From: Acidobacteriota bacterium
Lineage (GTDB): Bacteria > Acidobacteriota > Vicinamibacteria > Vicinamibacterales > UBA8438
Direction of reading: 5' to 3'
NCBI GenBank assembly: GCA_011523485.1
Contig: WTGR01000775.1
Coordinates: forward strand, 1 to 5,031
Length of the DNA stretch: 5,031 nucleotides
Part shown: positions 116 through 4,641 of the stretch, in pieces
Position numbering within the stretch: the stretch's first letter is position 1
Layout: each line of letters begins with the position of its first letter
Notes under the pieces: model-generated
Seen by the model: only the letters and a program-made list of their open reading frames with translations
What the model was told of the DNA's origin: nothing
Database searches by the model: none
Program-made: the position numbers and the translations under genes

Positions 116-949
116 ATGACGCGCCGGGTCGCTGTGCTCGCGGTGGCGTCGTTCCTCCTGTCCGGCCTGCTGGCCGCCGCGGCGGCGCAGTGGGGTTGGG
201 GGGTCGGGGAGGGCAACATGCCCGTGCGCTTCCCGCCCGCCTCGATGCCGGATCGCGGCTTCACCTTCTGCAAGCTGATGTACGACCAGGTGCGCTACGA
301 GGCGCTCGGCATGGGCTGGTCGACCGACTATCCCTACGCCGGCATCAACCTGATGCACCGGATCGAGGACCTGACGACGACCCAGGTCAGCAAGGACCGC
401 CGCGGCGATCCGAACCACTGGGTCGTGCGGCTGACCGACGACGAGCTGTTCAACTGCCCGTTCGTCATGGCCGCCGACGTCGGCACGATCGGCATGAGCG
501 CCGCGGAGGCGTCGCGGCTCCGGGAGTACCTGCTGAAGGGCGGCTTCCTCTGGGTGGACGATTTCTGGGGAACGCGCGCCTGGGACCACTGGGTCGGCGA
601 GATCTCCCGGGTGCTGCCGCCGGCGCAGTATCCCATCCGCGACGTGCCGCTCGATCACCCGGTGTTCCGCGCGCTGACGCACGTCGAGAAGGTGCCCCAG
701 ATCACGTCGATCCAGTTCTGGTACCGGGCGCGGGGACGCACGACGTCCGAGCGGGGACGCGACAGCGACGTGGCCCATCTCCGCGCGATCAGCGACGAGC
801 ACGGGCGCTTCCTCGTGGTGATGACGCACAACACGGACGTGGCCGACGCGTGGGAGCGGGAGGCCGACGACCCCCGCTTCTTCGAGCAGTTCTCGCCCGA
901 CGGCTACGGGCTGGGCATCAACATGGTGCTCTACTCGATGAGCCGGTAA
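116..949 (+). CDS. Exported DUF4159 domain protein, function unknown
   Basis: A 277-residue protein. The N-terminus is a standard Sec signal peptide: basic MTRR, a hydrophobic stretch at about 5-20, then a run of alanines (20-24) ending before Q25, a plausible signal peptidase I site, so the mature protein is probably periplasmic or outside the cell. The rest matches DUF4159: an FxxCKLMYDQVRY-like opening (about 50-61), a DYPYAGINLMHRI segment (71-83) and the hallmark GGFLWVDDFWG (142-152), followed by conserved blocks around LDHPVFRAL (179-187) and GYGLGINMVLYSM (263-275). DUF4159 has a glutamine-amidotransferase-like fold, and no catalytic activity is established for it. In many bacteria it accompanies MoxR ATPase, DUF58 and VWA-domain genes; none is visible here because the window starts just upstream. 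The ATG at 116 was chosen because it gives a compact signal peptide; a GTG at 95 would add seven residues and lie upstream of the possible -10 box. The ribosome-binding site is weak for both. Confidence 0.85.
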   Translation: MTRRVAVLAVASFLLSGLLAAAAAQWGWGVGEGNMPVRFPPASMPDRGFTFCKLMYDQVRYEALGMGWSTDYPYAGINLMHRIEDLTTTQVSKDRRGDPNHWVVRLTDDELFNCPFVMAADVGTIGMSAAEASRLREYLLKGGFLWVDDFWGTRAWDHWVGEISRVLPPAQYPIRDVPLDHPVFRALTHVEKVPQITSIQFWYRARGRTTSERGRDSDVAHLRAISDEHGRFLVVMTHNTDVADAWEREADDPRFFEQFSPDGYGLGINMVLYSMSR

Positions 950-1104: not shown

Positions 1105-1205
1105 CGCCTGGAAGTGCGCGCCGCAGAGGCGGTGCAGACTTCTGGTCAGGCCCGGTTGGGCGGCAATCGGAGCCATCGGCGACGATGTCGGACTGGAACG
1201 GCTCC
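1105..1205 (+). repeat. Structured intergenic repeat, copy A (leader of the mandelate racemase-like gene)
   Basis: This aligns without gaps to 2465-2550 at an offset of 1360, about 62 of 86 positions identical by hand count (1105-1190). The best-kept block is 1147-1174, 27 of 28 identical. Predicted structure: a long 5' hairpin, 1108-1124 against 1129-1145, with an AGAG loop at 1125-1128 and two adjacent mismatches (1116/1137, 1117/1136); a GCCC-GGTT-GGGC hairpin at 1150-1161; a short ATCG/CGAT stem (1166-1169 with 1183-1186) or, alternatively, CATCG-GCGA-CGATG at 1174-1187 with a GNRA-type loop; and GGAGCC (1169-1174) complementary to GGCTCC (1200-1205). It ends 45 nt before the start codon. 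It could be a cis-regulatory leader RNA or a dispersed palindromic repeat. I do not recognise it as a known riboswitch. Confidence 0.6.
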
Positions 1206-1237
1206 CGCGGAGCCCCGGTCCGGCGACTGATACACCC

Positions 1238-1244
1238 GCAGGAG
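1238..1244 (+). promoter_or_regulatory. Ribosome-binding site GCAGGAG
   Basis: The purine-rich GCAGGAG lies six bases before the ATG at 1251. It fixes that ATG as the start although the frame is open further upstream, and the choice also places a Tat motif at the N-terminus. Confidence 0.7.
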
Positions 1245-1250
1245 AACGCC

Positions 1251-2471
1251 ATGACCACACGCTTCTCGCGCCGTGCGTTCCTCGGCAGCGTCCCCGCGCT
1301 CGCCGCCCTCCCGCAGGTCTCGGCCGCCGCCGGGGCGGCGCCGCGGCTGCCGCTGGGGCAGCCGGAGCTCGGGCTCCGCATCACCGGCATGGAGCTGATC
1401 ACGGTGCGGGCTACCGCGCGCACGAACTGGATCTTCGTGCGGCTGTCGACCAACGACGGCATGACGGGCCTGGGCGAGGCGTCGATGGGCCGGCTGACCG
1501 CGTTGCCCGAGCTGGACGAGTTCTTCGAGCTCGCCCGCGACCGCTCCCCGTTCGAGATCCAGCGTTACCGGCAGCAGGGCCGGCCGCGGGCGGCGGCCGG
1601 CGACCGCCGGTTGGCCACCGCGTTCAGCGCGATCGAGCAGGCGCAGTGGGACCTGGTCGGCAAGGCCCTGCAGGCGCCGGCCTACGACCTGACCGGCGGC
1701 GCGCTGCGGCACGAGCTGCCGGGCTATGCGAACATCAACCGCGCCACGGCGGATCGGACGCCCGAGGGTTTCGCCGCCAACGCGCGGCAGGCGGTGGCGG
1801 ACGGCTTCCGCGCCATCAAGGCGGCGCCGTTCGACGGGTTCCCGCCGCTCGACGGTCCGGCCGCCGAGGTGGAGGCGGCCACCGAGCTGGGCATCGCCTG
1901 CATCGAGGCGATGCGGGCGGCCATCGGGCCGGACGTCGACCTGAAGATCGACGTCCACAGCTTCTTCGACGTGCCGCTGGCAATCGAGGTCGCCGAGCGT
2001 CTCCAGCCGCAGGCGCTGTCCTGGTACGAGGAGCCGGTGCCGCCGACCGACGTGGAGAGCACCCGGGCGATCAAGGAAGGCATCCGCCAGACGATGGCGG
2101 GCGGCGAGTTCCTGTTCGGGGTGGAGGGCTTCGCCCCGCTGTGCCGGGAGCGCGCGGTGGACATCATCATGCCCGACGTCAAGCACTGCGGCGGCGTGGC
2201 GGAGCTGGGACGGATCGCAACCGTCGCGGAGCTGCACGACGTCCTTGTCTCGCCCCACAACCCGAGCGGTCCGGTCAGCACGATGGTCTCGGCCAGCGTC
2301 TGCGCCGGCCTCTCGAACTTCGACATCCTGGAGTATCAGTGGAACGAGGTGCCGTGGCGCGGCGACCTCATCGATCCGCCGGAGCGGTTCTCGGGCGGGA
2401 TCCTGCCGGTACCGGACGGGCCGGGATTCGGCATCACGCTCAACGAGACCCTGGCGCGGGAGCACGCCTAG
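1251..2471 (+). CDS. Tat-exported mandelate racemase/muconate lactonizing family enzyme, probable sugar-acid dehydratase
   Basis: A 406-residue member of the enolase superfamily. The N-terminus carries a twin-arginine motif (SRRAFLG, 6-12), a short hydrophobic stretch and an alanine-rich region to about 30, predicting folded export to the periplasm, unlike most relatives. The capping domain spans about 41-160, followed by the (beta/alpha)7-beta barrel. Visible active-site residues: K190 at the end of barrel strand 2 (AIKAAPFDG); metal ligands D234 (KIDVH), E260 (WYEEP) and E286 (GGEFLFG); and the base dyad D309 (PDVKHCGG) with H336 (SPHNPSGP). The DxH spacing at 234-236 and the PHNPSGP loop resemble the galactonate/gluconate dehydratase side of the mandelate racemase subgroup. 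Such enzymes remove an alpha proton from a sugar acid and eliminate water to a 2-keto-3-deoxy acid, with Mg2+. The substrate cannot be read from sequence; racemase or epimerase activity is possible. In MR itself strand 2 has KxK; here the second Lys is Ala192. Start chosen from the ribosome-binding site and Tat motif. The TAG stop lies inside repeat copy B. Confidence 0.88.
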
Positions 2472-2574
2472 CAGTCTGCACCGTTTCTACGCCGCAGACT
2501 GCCAGACAGGCCCGGTTGGGCGGAAATCGGAGCCGCAGGCAACGATTTCCGGGCCAGCAGCGCCGGGGGGCTCC
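2465..2574 (+). repeat. Structured intergenic repeat, copy B (between the mandelate racemase-like gene and enolase)
   Basis: Second copy of the repeat seen at 1105-1205. The 28-bp core at 2507-2534 differs from 1147-1174 only at 2524 (A for C). The 5' hairpin is a perfect 9-bp inverted repeat, GCAGTCTGC (2471-2479) with GCAGACTGC (2494-2502), plus three inner pairs at 2482-2484/2489-2491. Next come GCCC-GGTT-GGGC (2510-2521) and a perfect 8-bp pair GGAAATCG (2522-2529) with CGATTTCC (2543-2550). Its loop holds GAGCC (2530-2534), complementary to GGCTC at 2569-2573. Homology to copy A begins at 2465, inside the last codons of the upstream gene, so the TAG stop sits in the repeat. It ends 27 nt before the enolase start. 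The first hairpin abuts the stop codon and could act as a 3'-end or attenuation structure, but no T-run follows. Confidence 0.6.
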
Positions 2575-2601: not shown

Positions 2602-3891
2602 ATGAGGATTCGGGCGGTCGACGGACTGGAAGTGATCGATTCGCGCGGCAATCCGACGGTGGAGGCCCGCGTTCATCTCGACGACGGCACCGTGGCCGAG
2701 GCCCGCGTGCCGTCCGGCGCATCGACCGGCGAGCGCGAGGCGACGGAGCTGCGCGACGGCGGCGCGCGCTACGGGGGCAAGGGCGTGCGGCAGGCGGTGG
2801 CCAACGTCAACGGCGAGATCAGCCGCGCGCTGGCCGGCGCCGACGCGGCGGATCAGCGCGGGCTCGATCAGCGGATGATCGACCTCGACGGCACGCCGAA
2901 CAAGTCCCGGCTCGGCGCCAATGCGATTCTCGGCGTATCGATGGCGGCGGCGCGGGCCGCGGCGGCGGCCGCGGGCATCCCCCTGTACCGCCACCTCCGC
3001 GGCGACGACGCGGCGTTGCTGCCGGTGCCCTGCCTCAACGTGATCAACGGCGGACGGCACGCCGACAACACGGTCGATTTCCAGGAGTTCAAGATCGCCC
3101 CGCACAACGCGCCGTCATTCGCCGAGGCGCTGCGGATGGGCATCGAGGCCTTCCACGCCTTGCGGGCGCTGCTCAAGAGCCGCGGCAAGTCTACCGGCAT
3201 CGGCGACGAGGGAGGCTTCGCCCCGGACCTGTCGAGCAACGAGGAAGCGGTCGAGCTGATTCTCGAGTCCATCGAGAAAGCCGGATACCGTCCCGGCTCG
3301 GACATCGCGATCTGCCTGGATCCGGCAACGAGCGAGATGTGGCGCGACGCGTCCTACGTTGCGTTCAAGTCCGACCAGTCGGCCCGGACCACCGACGAGA
3401 TGATCGCGGTCTGGAGCGGCTGGATCGACCGCTACCCCATCGTGCTCATCGAGGACGCGCTGGCCGAGAACGACTGGGACGGCTGGGCGCGGCTGACCAG
3501 CGCGCTCGGATCGAGGATCGAGCTGGTGGGCGACGACCTGTTCTGCACGAACCCCGCCATCCTGCAGCGCGGCATCGACAGCGGGGTCGGCAACTCCATT
3601 CTCGTCAAGCTGAACCAGATCGGGACCGTCTCGGAGACCCTGGACACGGTGCGCCTGGCCCAGCGCAACGGCTACGGCGCCTACATGTCGCACCGCTCCG
3701 GCGAGACCGAGGACACCTTCATCGCCGACCTCGCCGTCGCCACCGGCTGCGGCCACATCAAGACCGGATCCGGTTGCCGCGGCGAGCGGACGGCGAAGTT
3801 CAATCGGCTGCTGCGCATCGAGCACGAGCTGGGCGACCGGGCGCGGTTCGCCGGTCTCGGCGGCTTCCGGCAGTCCGCACTGGCCCGTTGA
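2602..3891 (+). CDS. eno: Enolase (phosphopyruvate hydratase), divergent at several signature positions
   Basis: A 429-residue protein of normal enolase length. Enolase interconverts 2-phosphoglycerate and phosphoenolpyruvate in glycolysis and gluconeogenesis, in the cytosol, with Mg2+; no signal peptide is seen. The N-terminal domain has [11 protein letters not shown] (12-22) and the mobile loop SGAS (38-41). Barrel residues equivalent to those of E. coli enolase are present: H153 (GRHADN), E162 (QEF), the acid E203 (GDEGG), metal ligands D240 (LDPA), E284 (IED) and D311 (GDD), the base K336 (KLNQIG), H364-R365-S366 (SHRSGETED) and K387 (KTGS). Oddities: R152 where Glu, Ser or Ala is usual in GGxHADN; A286 in IEDAL where Gly is usual; and [13 protein letters not shown] (389-401) in place of the usual GSxSRSERxAKYN. 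The catalytic set is complete, so activity is expected. The divergence could mean a lineage-specific form or a second, specialised enolase. It lies 130 bp after the mandelate racemase-like gene and is probably co-transcribed with it. Confidence 0.9.
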
Positions 3892-3941
3892 ACCGCTTTG
3901 AACGAGCGCGTAACCGCGACGATCCCGACAGCGAATCCAGT

Positions 3942-3947
3942 TATACT
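3942..3947 (+). promoter_or_regulatory. Possible -10 box (TATACT) of the vapBC unit
   Basis: TATACT, within TTATACTTGG, matches five of six positions of the -10 consensus and lies 20 nt before the antitoxin ATG at 3968, giving a leader of about 14 nt. No good -35 hexamer is seen at the standard distance. It falls in the short gap between enolase and the antitoxin, consistent with independent transcription of the toxin-antitoxin unit. Confidence 0.45.
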
Positions 3948-3966
3948 TGGGCAGGCAGGGTCATAC

Positions 3967-3977
3967 CATGCCGCATG
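3967..3977. promoter_or_regulatory. Palindrome CATGC-C-GCATG over the antitoxin start codon
   Basis: A perfect 5+1+5 palindrome covers the ATG at 3968. VapBC complexes usually repress their own operon by binding inverted repeats near the promoter, so this is a candidate operator half or full site; the short length makes chance a serious alternative. Confidence 0.25.
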
Positions 3978-4240
3978 TAGTGGGAACCAAGGGCCAGGTA
4001 GTCATCGCGAAGAACATTCGCGATTCACTCGGCATCGCCCCCGGCTGGATCTCTCTCCAGCGCCAGGTGGACGACCACGTCGAGATCCACTTCCTGCCGC
4101 CGGACCATCGCGAGTCGCTAAAGGGCGCCCTGGCGCGTTTCGTCAAGGTGCACATCCCCCCTGGGAATGCCTGGCGGGAGGCTCGAGAGCGGGGTTGGAG
4201 CGAAGCGTCGCGGGCCGGCATCACGCCTGCATCCGGGTGA
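3968..4240 (+). CDS. vapB: AbrB/MazE/SpoVT-fold antitoxin (VapB-like)
   Basis: A 90-residue protein. Residues 4-42 form the swapped-hairpin AbrB DNA-binding domain: VGTKGQVVIAKNIRDSLGI matches the family pattern of a KGQ turn, a short strand, then a [KR]xIRxxLGI helix, with strands to IHFLP (40-44). The usual Pro before the helix is Ala14. The C-terminal half (about 48-90) is charged, with alternating basic and acidic residues, as expected for the flexible tail that wraps and blocks a PIN toxin; the pairing is inferred from position. It overlaps the toxin gene by four bases (GTGA at 4237-4240), implying coupled translation. Likely role: neutralises the toxin and represses the operon. Start: ATG 3968 is favoured because the domain begins at once; an in-frame TTG at 3947 would overlap the likely -10 box. 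The ribosome-binding site is poor (a purine stretch around 3951-3960). Base composition looks less GC-extreme than the genes upstream, which would fit horizontal acquisition. Confidence 0.8.
   Translation: MPHVVGTKGQVVIAKNIRDSLGIAPGWISLQRQVDDHVEIHFLPPDHRESLKGALARFVKVHIPPGNAWREARERGWSEASRAGITPASG
4004..4024. repeat. Perfect 8-bp inverted repeat inside the antitoxin gene
   Basis: ATCGCGAA (4004-4011), a 5-base spacer GAACA, then TTCGCGAT (4017-4024). It lies 36 bp inside the coding region, over the codons of the AbrB recognition segment. It could be an intragenic operator, an mRNA hairpin that tunes translation, or a coincidence of codon choice. Confidence 0.35.
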
Positions 4241-4641
4241 GCGGCCTTCTCGATACGTCGATGCTCGTCCGGTATCTCACAGGCGATCCGCCCGACTCGG
4301 CGGATCGGGCAGCGCAGGTGATCGACGGAGAAACCGACCTCGTCATCACCGATGTCGCACTCGTCGAGACCGCCTACGTGCTCACGTCGGTCTACGGAAT
4401 CGCGCGCGAAGTCGTCGTCGACCACCTGATCGCTCTCCTGCGCAAGGAGAACATCCGCCCGCGTCACCTGCCCAAGAGCCTGGCTCTGGAAGCGTTGCGC
4501 CTGTGCCGTCCCTCGAATCGCGTCTCTTTCGCGGATGCACTCATCTGGGCCGCCGCGAGAGCCGACGAGACGGCGGTCTTCACGCTCGACGAGCGGTTTC
4601 CGGGACAGGGTATCGCCGTCCTGCGATCGACACCGCCGTGA
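4237..4641 (+). CDS. vapC: PIN-domain ribonuclease toxin (VapC-like)
   Basis: A 134-residue protein, the normal size for VapC. PIN-domain acidic residues are all present: D6 (LLDTSMLVRYL), E44 (LVETAYVL), D100 (SFADALIWA) and D118 (FTLDERF); these bind the divalent metals used to cut RNA. VapC toxins typically cleave tRNA or rRNA and slow growth when the antitoxin is lost; the target here is unknown. The start is the GTG at 4237, overlapping the antitoxin stop as GTGA: the next in-frame ATG (4261) would remove strand 1 and catalytic D6. No separate ribosome-binding site is needed if translation is coupled. All four acidic residues and the full length suggest an active toxin. The stop TGA at 4639 overlaps the start of the next gene. 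Confidence 0.85.
   Translation: MSGLLDTSMLVRYLTGDPPDSADRAAQVIDGETDLVITDVALVETAYVLTSVYGIAREVVVDHLIALLRKENIRPRHLPKSLALEALRLCRPSNRVSFADALIWAAARADETAVFTLDERFPGQGIAVLRSTPP

Follow-up and report, generated by a model that had tools for sequence, protein, structure and literature searches.

A probable mobile repeat of about 90 nt, REP/MITE-like and often at stop codons, in the genomes of one Vicinamibacterales family

The 5,031-nt stretch of an Acidobacteriota genome analysed here (the window; contig WTGR01000775.1, assembly GCA_011523485.1) carries two similar, foldable sequences, one in front of each of two enolase-superfamily genes. This raises the question of whether the pair is a regulatory leader RNA common to both genes or belongs to a family of dispersed intergenic palindromes, and an initial annotation of the locus had proposed both. 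We consider it very probable that both sequences are copies of a non-coding, REP/MITE-like mobile repeat of about 90 nt that has spread in the genomes of one Vicinamibacterales family. Five observations support this: the copy number is high but restricted to one clade, orthologous sites are occupied in some genomes and empty in others, copies occur in tandem, the structure covaries, and the repeat has a strong tendency to lie exactly on a stop codon.

The two copies and their orthologous sites

The features of the window are listed in Table 1. The gapless alignment of 1105-1190 with 2465-2550 that first drew attention to the locus was confirmed by a recount (62 of 85 or 62 of 86 positions identical, core 27/28). 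The location of the repeat held as well, but the family alignment shows that the annotated starts were about 3 nt early and the ends 6-7 nt short. Likewise, both flanking genes do belong to the enolase superfamily, although only the second is a true enolase, the first being an MR/MLE-type member (MR below). In a repeat search, the two copies formed the longest direct repeat of the window (85 nt, 73%). A core pattern (24 nt, 20 fixed, up to 3 mismatches) matched twice versus 0.01 expected, and two matches were reached in 0 of 200 shuffles. The copies scored 91.5 bits (E 1.1e-15, 1106-1197) and 94.4 bits (E 3e-16, 2466-2558), respectively, against a covariance model, R1, built from 37 copies that included both of them. 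The TAG at 2469-2471, inside copy 2, is the stop codon of the MR gene.

Table 1. Coordinates of genes and repeat features in the window
Feature	Position	Strand	Remark
DUF4159 gene	116-949	+	annotated gene of the window
Copy 1 (family A)	1108-1196	+	between the DUF4159 gene and the MR/MLE-like gene
Copy 1, end tetranucleotides	5' CTGG 1108-1111; 3' CTGG 1193-1196	+	
Copy 1, hairpin 1	1108-1145	+	fold and family alignment
Copy 1, conserved core	1147-1174	+	linker, GCCC-GGTT-GGGC and start of hairpin 3; 27/28 identical to copy 2
MR/MLE-type enolase-superfamily gene	1251-2471	+	Pfam MR_MLE_C 1.1e-54; stop codon from copy 2
Copy 2 (family A)	2468-2557	+	between the MR/MLE-like gene and enolase
Copy 2, end tetranucleotides	5' CTAG 2468-2471; 3' CCAG 2554-2557	+	
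Copy 2, hairpin 1	2468-2505	+	fold and family alignment
Copy 2, conserved core	2507-2534	+	27/28 identical to the copy 1 core
Enolase (eno)	2602-3891	+	TIGR01060, 617.7 bits; context, outside the repeat
AbrB-like/PIN gene pair	3968-4641	+	AbrB match slightly under the cut-off
SnoaL-like gene		+	beyond the AbrB-like/PIN pair

The closest relative found, G155, is 95% identical in DNA sequence over 19-2469. Copy 2 is absent from the orthologous MR-enolase site of G155, G001, G002 and G003. In these four genomes, and also in G141, G005 and G006, the MR gene ends in TGA, while in the window it ends in a TAG within the repeat; at the site itself, the relatives have CTGA versus CTAG and CCAG in the window. 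Copy 1 is shared with G155 and absent from G001, G002 and G003. In G002, additional sequence was seen in the gap that corresponds to the copy 1 site. Between the window and G155, copy 1 is 86.5% identical and the spacers beside it 86.4% and 85.5%, with the two genes at 98.4% and 96.8%. Because copy 1 is no more alike than its spacers, it shows no sign of constraint.

In a survey of 22 ortholog loci (12 enolase, 10 MR), in which matches were placed relative to genes by hand, family A was found in G141 (one match ahead of MR and a weak one behind enolase), in G140 (after MR), in G005 (two after enolase) and in G006 (after enolase). Only the G141 copy precedes either gene, and none of the 22 loci has a family A match directly upstream of enolase. 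Judging by eye from its flanks, which are unlike those of the window, we take the G141 copy to be a separate insertion. Conservation in front of orthologous genes, as expected of a riboswitch, was thus not found. On sequence comparison, the presence of copies at orthologous sites in some genomes and their absence from others indicates that the repeat is mobile.

Copy number, structure and sister families

Further copies were sought with sequence patterns and the covariance model, and were abundant. A 19-base pattern run over the genome collection returned 45 loci, 43 of them in six Acidobacteriota/Vicinamibacteria MAGs; the other two, in Bacteroidota (L021, L042), are taken as chance matches. 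Six loci had two pattern matches in tandem, spaced 86 nt apart in three cases and 60, 75 and 130 nt in the others. At E<=0.01, and among the best 150 candidates per genome, R1 gave 131, 149, 104, 1, at least 150 and at least 150 matches in these six genomes. Scoring the best 26 candidates per genome identified carriers in 13 of 162 genomes of the order to which G003 belongs. Within the Vicinamibacterales family of G003, 13 of 28 genomes are carriers at E<=1e-4, and there was no match among the best 150 candidates in each of the other 15. Twelve of the 13 carriers have from 29 to at least 150 matches each, in keeping with the dispersed family of intergenic palindromes that had been suggested. 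The thirteenth, G004, has a single match, which may be mis-binned, since G004 and G001 come from the same project (isolates 277c_3 and 277c_2).

In 400 kb of G003, 17 matches were found versus one weak match in a shuffled control, and 1.95 Mb of G003 held 46 family A copies, 36 of them full length. A run of N lies inside a tandem array of the repeat at L034:4372-4454 (a scaffold gap or masked stretch), so that the counts for fragmented MAGs may be underestimates. A 20-base pattern was absent from viral contigs; plasmids were searched with the enolase protein only (best identity 65%). These copy numbers, the near-perfect palindrome of hairpin 1 and the 48 of 136 copies exactly at a gene end (see below) agree with the description of REPs as high-copy, mostly extragenic palindromes.

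The plan of the element of about 90 nt is as follows: CYAG, a long hairpin, GCCC-GGTT-GGGC, a GAGCC hairpin, and CYAG. Covariation was counted on the 37-copy alignment, with a model-fitted alignment of 130 matches (A2) kept out of the pair counts. Across the three helices, 93.3% of cells were paired, and 27 cells had both sides changed, compared with a shuffle mean of 9.0 (none of the 500 shuffles reached 27) and a range of 4 to 10 for slid structures. Pairs with a double change numbered 6, a value also reached in 34 of the 500 shuffles and within the range of 4 to 8 seen for slid structures. The base of hairpin 1 holds the strongest covarying pair (C-G 14, U-A 14, U-G 4, other 5). In helix 2 no pair is changed on both sides, and in helix 3 just one is; because double changes are so scarce there, the covariation speaks mainly for hairpin 1. 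We conclude that the covariation is genuine and lies chiefly at the base of that hairpin. Both compensatory changes first noted between the window copies are present: A1112-T1141 versus C2472-G2501 corresponds to alignment pair 8-40, unpaired in 4 of the 37 copies, and C1124-G1129 versus T2484-A2489 to pair 20-26, unpaired in 8 and gapped in 2. The initial idea of a folded element is supported by the covariation in the 37-copy alignment and, on visual inspection, by two sister families that seem to be built alike.

The fold itself is uninformative on strand. Folding z-scores were -2.15 (copy 1) and -4.70 (copy 2) on the + strand and -1.74 and -6.43 on the - strand.

Over 97 copies, the end tetranucleotide is CYAG (C 92%, T 54% or C 44%, A 84%, G 94%). 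It is base-paired, with covariation, and is in this respect not the unpaired GTAG or CGTC tag that REPs have at one end. The 5'/3' combinations were CTAG/CTAG (24), CCAG/CCAG (9), CTAG/CCAG (5) and CCAG/CTAG (10). At one orthologous site, a CTAG-type copy (L006:2199, G001) stands opposite a CCAG-type copy (L019:822, G002), with foot pairing kept in each; this difference could come from double mutation, conversion or repeated insertion.

The genomes that carry family A also contain two sister families. Family B, bounded by CTAG and 108 model positions long, comprises 77 distinct copies, 63 of them in G003 contigs. In the 1.95 Mb of G003, family B thus outnumbers family A, 63 copies to 46 (B at L093-L112 and L187-L266, for example G003:C63 near 45 kb). 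A few occurrences of a family C with the GAGCC hairpin were seen at G003:C15 near 20.6 kb, G003:C8 near 30 kb and in G155:C40. Read by eye, B and C seem to follow the family A plan, with stems that differ in sequence.

Stop codons and empty sites

The position of the repeat relative to gene ends was surveyed for 171 distinct copies taken from 14 sources; genes were called with our own codon-usage score, and a copy shared by related genomes was counted once for each genome. Among 136 copies with at least 300 nt of upstream sequence, 48 were in phase with the stop of the upstream gene: in 32 of these the best-scoring upstream frame ended on the 5' TAG of the repeat, and in the other 16 it ran on to an in-frame TAG in the hairpin 1 loop. 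No other offset occurred more than twice. The remaining upstream frames stopped before the repeat (45), showed no coding frame (34) or fell elsewhere (9). At the 3' end (137 copies), an opposite-strand frame stopped exactly at the terminal tetranucleotide in 22, before it in 35 and elsewhere in 21 (offsets 50 and 54 three times each), and 59 had no frame. Family B copies were at stops in 21 of 67 cases upstream and 13 of 59 at the 3' end.

As a control, 3000 random placements in G003 gave 597 in phase, 808 in another phase, 525 where the frame had ended before and 1070 with no coding frame. Random placement is a soft null, with 597/3000 in phase versus 48/136 copies; when only read-through cases are counted, the in-phase share is 48/57 for real copies versus 597/1405 for random placements. 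The CTAG motif itself is concentrated at stops in the G003 contigs (178 stop-codon matches per 904 strand-counts, from 452 palindromic sites), and part of the stop pattern is accordingly explained by CTAG simply being the target. Copies of the NTAG type were at a stop in 32 of 50 cases over all sources (6 of 7 in G003), compared with 156 of 782 strand-sites for unoccupied CTAG in G003, and only 16 of 86 non-NTAG copies were in phase. Survival of harmless insertions, and not targeting, may lie behind part of the phase bias.

Empty sites were compared by eye for 22 copies at 21 sites where the 5' flank could be aligned with a relative lacking the repeat. The stop of the relative lay exactly at the tetranucleotide in nine (CTAG, CTAA twice, CTGA twice, ATAG twice, TTAG and GTAG). 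In two others (L037, L040) there was a stop at that place, but a piece of this or of another repeat is present in the relative. The stop was about one codon off in two, a few codons further in two (L030, L160) and not placeable in six. For L005 and G155, the flank is 97% identical and the empty site carries a CTAG stop. Several empty sites have a single tetranucleotide, while occupied sites have a CYAG-like one at each end, the two often not identical. From the sequences, these pairs would fit either a 4-bp duplication or insertion next to the tetranucleotide with the other one supplied by the element. They provide material for working out the insertion rule.

The habit of lying at stop codons is already known from REPs. 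For REPs located no more than 15 nt from a stop, a connection with the control of translation has been reported (PMC12306157). The repeat described here offers a natural case of a small non-coding element spreading through compact genomes by landing on stop codons, and for annotation it means that some gene ends in this family are written by a repeat.

Candidate enzymes and possible origins

No intact Y1 transposase was found in the 13 carriers; PF01797 matched in one, G003, where it identified a truncated ORF. This ORF, of 106 aa and IS200/IS605 type, adjoins an IS110 gene (L076:65-1809) and lies about 50 kb from the nearest repeat. The RAYT model NF047646 matched in none of the 12 carriers other than G004, so that the associated RAYT gene typical of REP hosts was not seen. 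Since most of the genomes are fragmented MAGs, failure to find an enzyme in them is only a weak argument; G141, with a main contig of 6.1 Mb, is the exception. Two other candidates were rejected because they do not separate carriers from the other genomes of the family: IS110 (PF02371; 11 of 13 carriers versus 8 of 15) and reverse transcriptase (PF00078; 8 of 13 versus 3 of 15), the latter leaning to carriers, whose assemblies are often larger. Six reverse transcriptase and IS110 genes checked in G003 and G155 were at least 9 kb from the nearest A or B repeat. Nor could an autonomous copy be made out: element halves separated by about 2-5 kb formed eight orphan pairs, some overlapping each other; by eye, no transposase-like ORF was seen in five such regions (the C70 region being left out), and genes between neighbouring repeats looked host-like.

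The repeat may be a REP family, at odds we would put a little short of even, whose RAYT or IS200/IS605-type (Y1 HUH) transposase has been lost or is too diverged, and which moves as a single strand beside a CTAG-like tetranucleotide with no target duplication. Hairpins near both ends, the lack of terminal inverted repeats, tandem copies, a tetranucleotide at the hairpin foot, and closeness to stop codons all suggest this, as does the truncated G003 ORF. GTAG REPs show further likenesses (PMC3733652): their termini often supply a TAG stop to flanking ORFs, and their distribution among species is uneven. With GTAG REPs and their RAYTs (PMC3733652, PMC6006769), the repeat also shares high copy number, mostly intergenic palindromes, clusters and a tetranucleotide tag. 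However, PF01797 in one of 13 carriers and NF047646 in none of 12, G141 included, argue against this origin, as does the distance of the G003 ORF from any repeat. Furthermore, the CYAG tag takes part in base pairing, unlike the GTAG and CGTC tags (PMC3733652). GTAG REPs are 20-40 bp long (PMC3733652), unlike the roughly 90-110 nt and up to three hairpins here, and have RAYTs. CGTC REPs, like our repeat, apparently lack a dedicated transposase; their CGTC tag and stems of 8-9 bp set them apart (PMC3733652). In IS200/IS605 elements, the ends use guide tetranucleotides, the guide at the foot of the hairpin contacting a flanking tetranucleotide (PMC6006769); the subterminal hairpins at both ends and the flanking tetranucleotide of our repeat resemble them, and by analogy a guide might act here as well. 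Unlike IS200/IS605, no intact Y1 transposase accompanies the repeat in the carriers searched.

A further possibility, which we put forward tentatively and with more doubt than confidence, is that an A/B/C superfamily colonises CTAG, and thereby stop codons, by means of an enzyme that is neither a RAYT nor a recognisable Y1. A single machine would read shape and a few fixed bases, and foot pairing would set the target. That the stems of the families differ on a common plan (CTAG, hairpin, TGGGC, stem, GAGCC, stem, CTAG) is what would be expected of such a machine. In our main reading, that of a REP/MITE-like mobile repeat, an enzyme would recognise the folded single strand, namely hairpin 1 with the GAGCC hairpin, and join the repeat at a CTAG-like tetranucleotide. 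In these GC-rich genomes, stop codons are where CTAG tends to occur. An insertion at a stop would be harmless because the repeat brings its own TAG, backed up by another in frame within the hairpin 1 loop. The copies suggest that REP-like repeats can reach high copy number without a detectable RAYT, and the question of what moves them becomes testable. Among the papers listed in our literature search, none dealt with such repeats in Vicinamibacter-type bacteria, and this family, its paired CYAG tag, its composite plan and the lack of a detectable RAYT did not appear there.

We consider it unlikely that the repeat, mobile by origin, now acts at many mRNA 3' ends, for example in stability, termination or translation, a kind of role that has been proposed for REPs near stop codons (PMC12306157). 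Its location at gene 3' ends, with exact stops commoner in sense (48/136) than in antisense (22/137), the stable fold and the covariation would agree with such a role. However, for copy 2 the fold is stronger on the - strand (z -6.43) than on the + strand (z -4.70), and the one orthologous copy pair compared in detail evolves like spacer.

It is more unlikely still that the repeat is a MITE of a DDE element, presumably IS5-like, that duplicates a CTAG/YTAA tetranucleotide at insertion. Several empty sites with one such tetranucleotide and occupied ones with CYAG at each end would fit, and equal ends (CTAG/CTAG 24, CCAG/CCAG 9) are commoner than mixed ones (5, 10). MITEPsy1, non-autonomous and 100 nt long, inserts at CTAG or YTAA and duplicates it (PMC3189936); it resembles our repeat in size (about 100 nt), lack of autonomy and insertion site. 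Against this, MITEPsy1 has 18-nt terminal inverted repeats (PMC3189936), whereas none was found here: in the consensus, the 18 nt inside the end tetranucleotides matched at 1/18 positions (A) and 6/18 (B), with gapped scores no better than shuffles. Nor was a longer element with these ends found.

That the two copies are a cis-regulatory leader RNA common to the MR/MLE-like gene and enolase is hardly credible and was rejected: each copy does lie upstream of an enolase-superfamily gene on the same strand, folds are more stable than most shuffles and one G141 copy precedes an MR ortholog, but the orthologous sites are empty in G001, G002 and G003 (that of copy 2 also in G155), copy 1 drifts like the spacers, there are at least 104 matches in each of five genomes and dozens to at least 150 copies in 12, no family A match is directly upstream of enolase in the ortholog loci, and Rfam gave nothing in the window at gathering scores and, when 1080-2600 was scanned permissively, four weak matches, none over a copy. 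Paired elements of this kind should consequently not be filed as riboswitches.

Returning to the mobile repeat as the probable reading, one difference between the window and its relatives lies outside the two copies. The AbrB-like/PIN gene pair, which we take to be of VapBC type, occupies the stretch from enolase to the SnoaL-like gene (window 3878-4636) and is missing at the orthologous place in G155, G001, G002 and G003.
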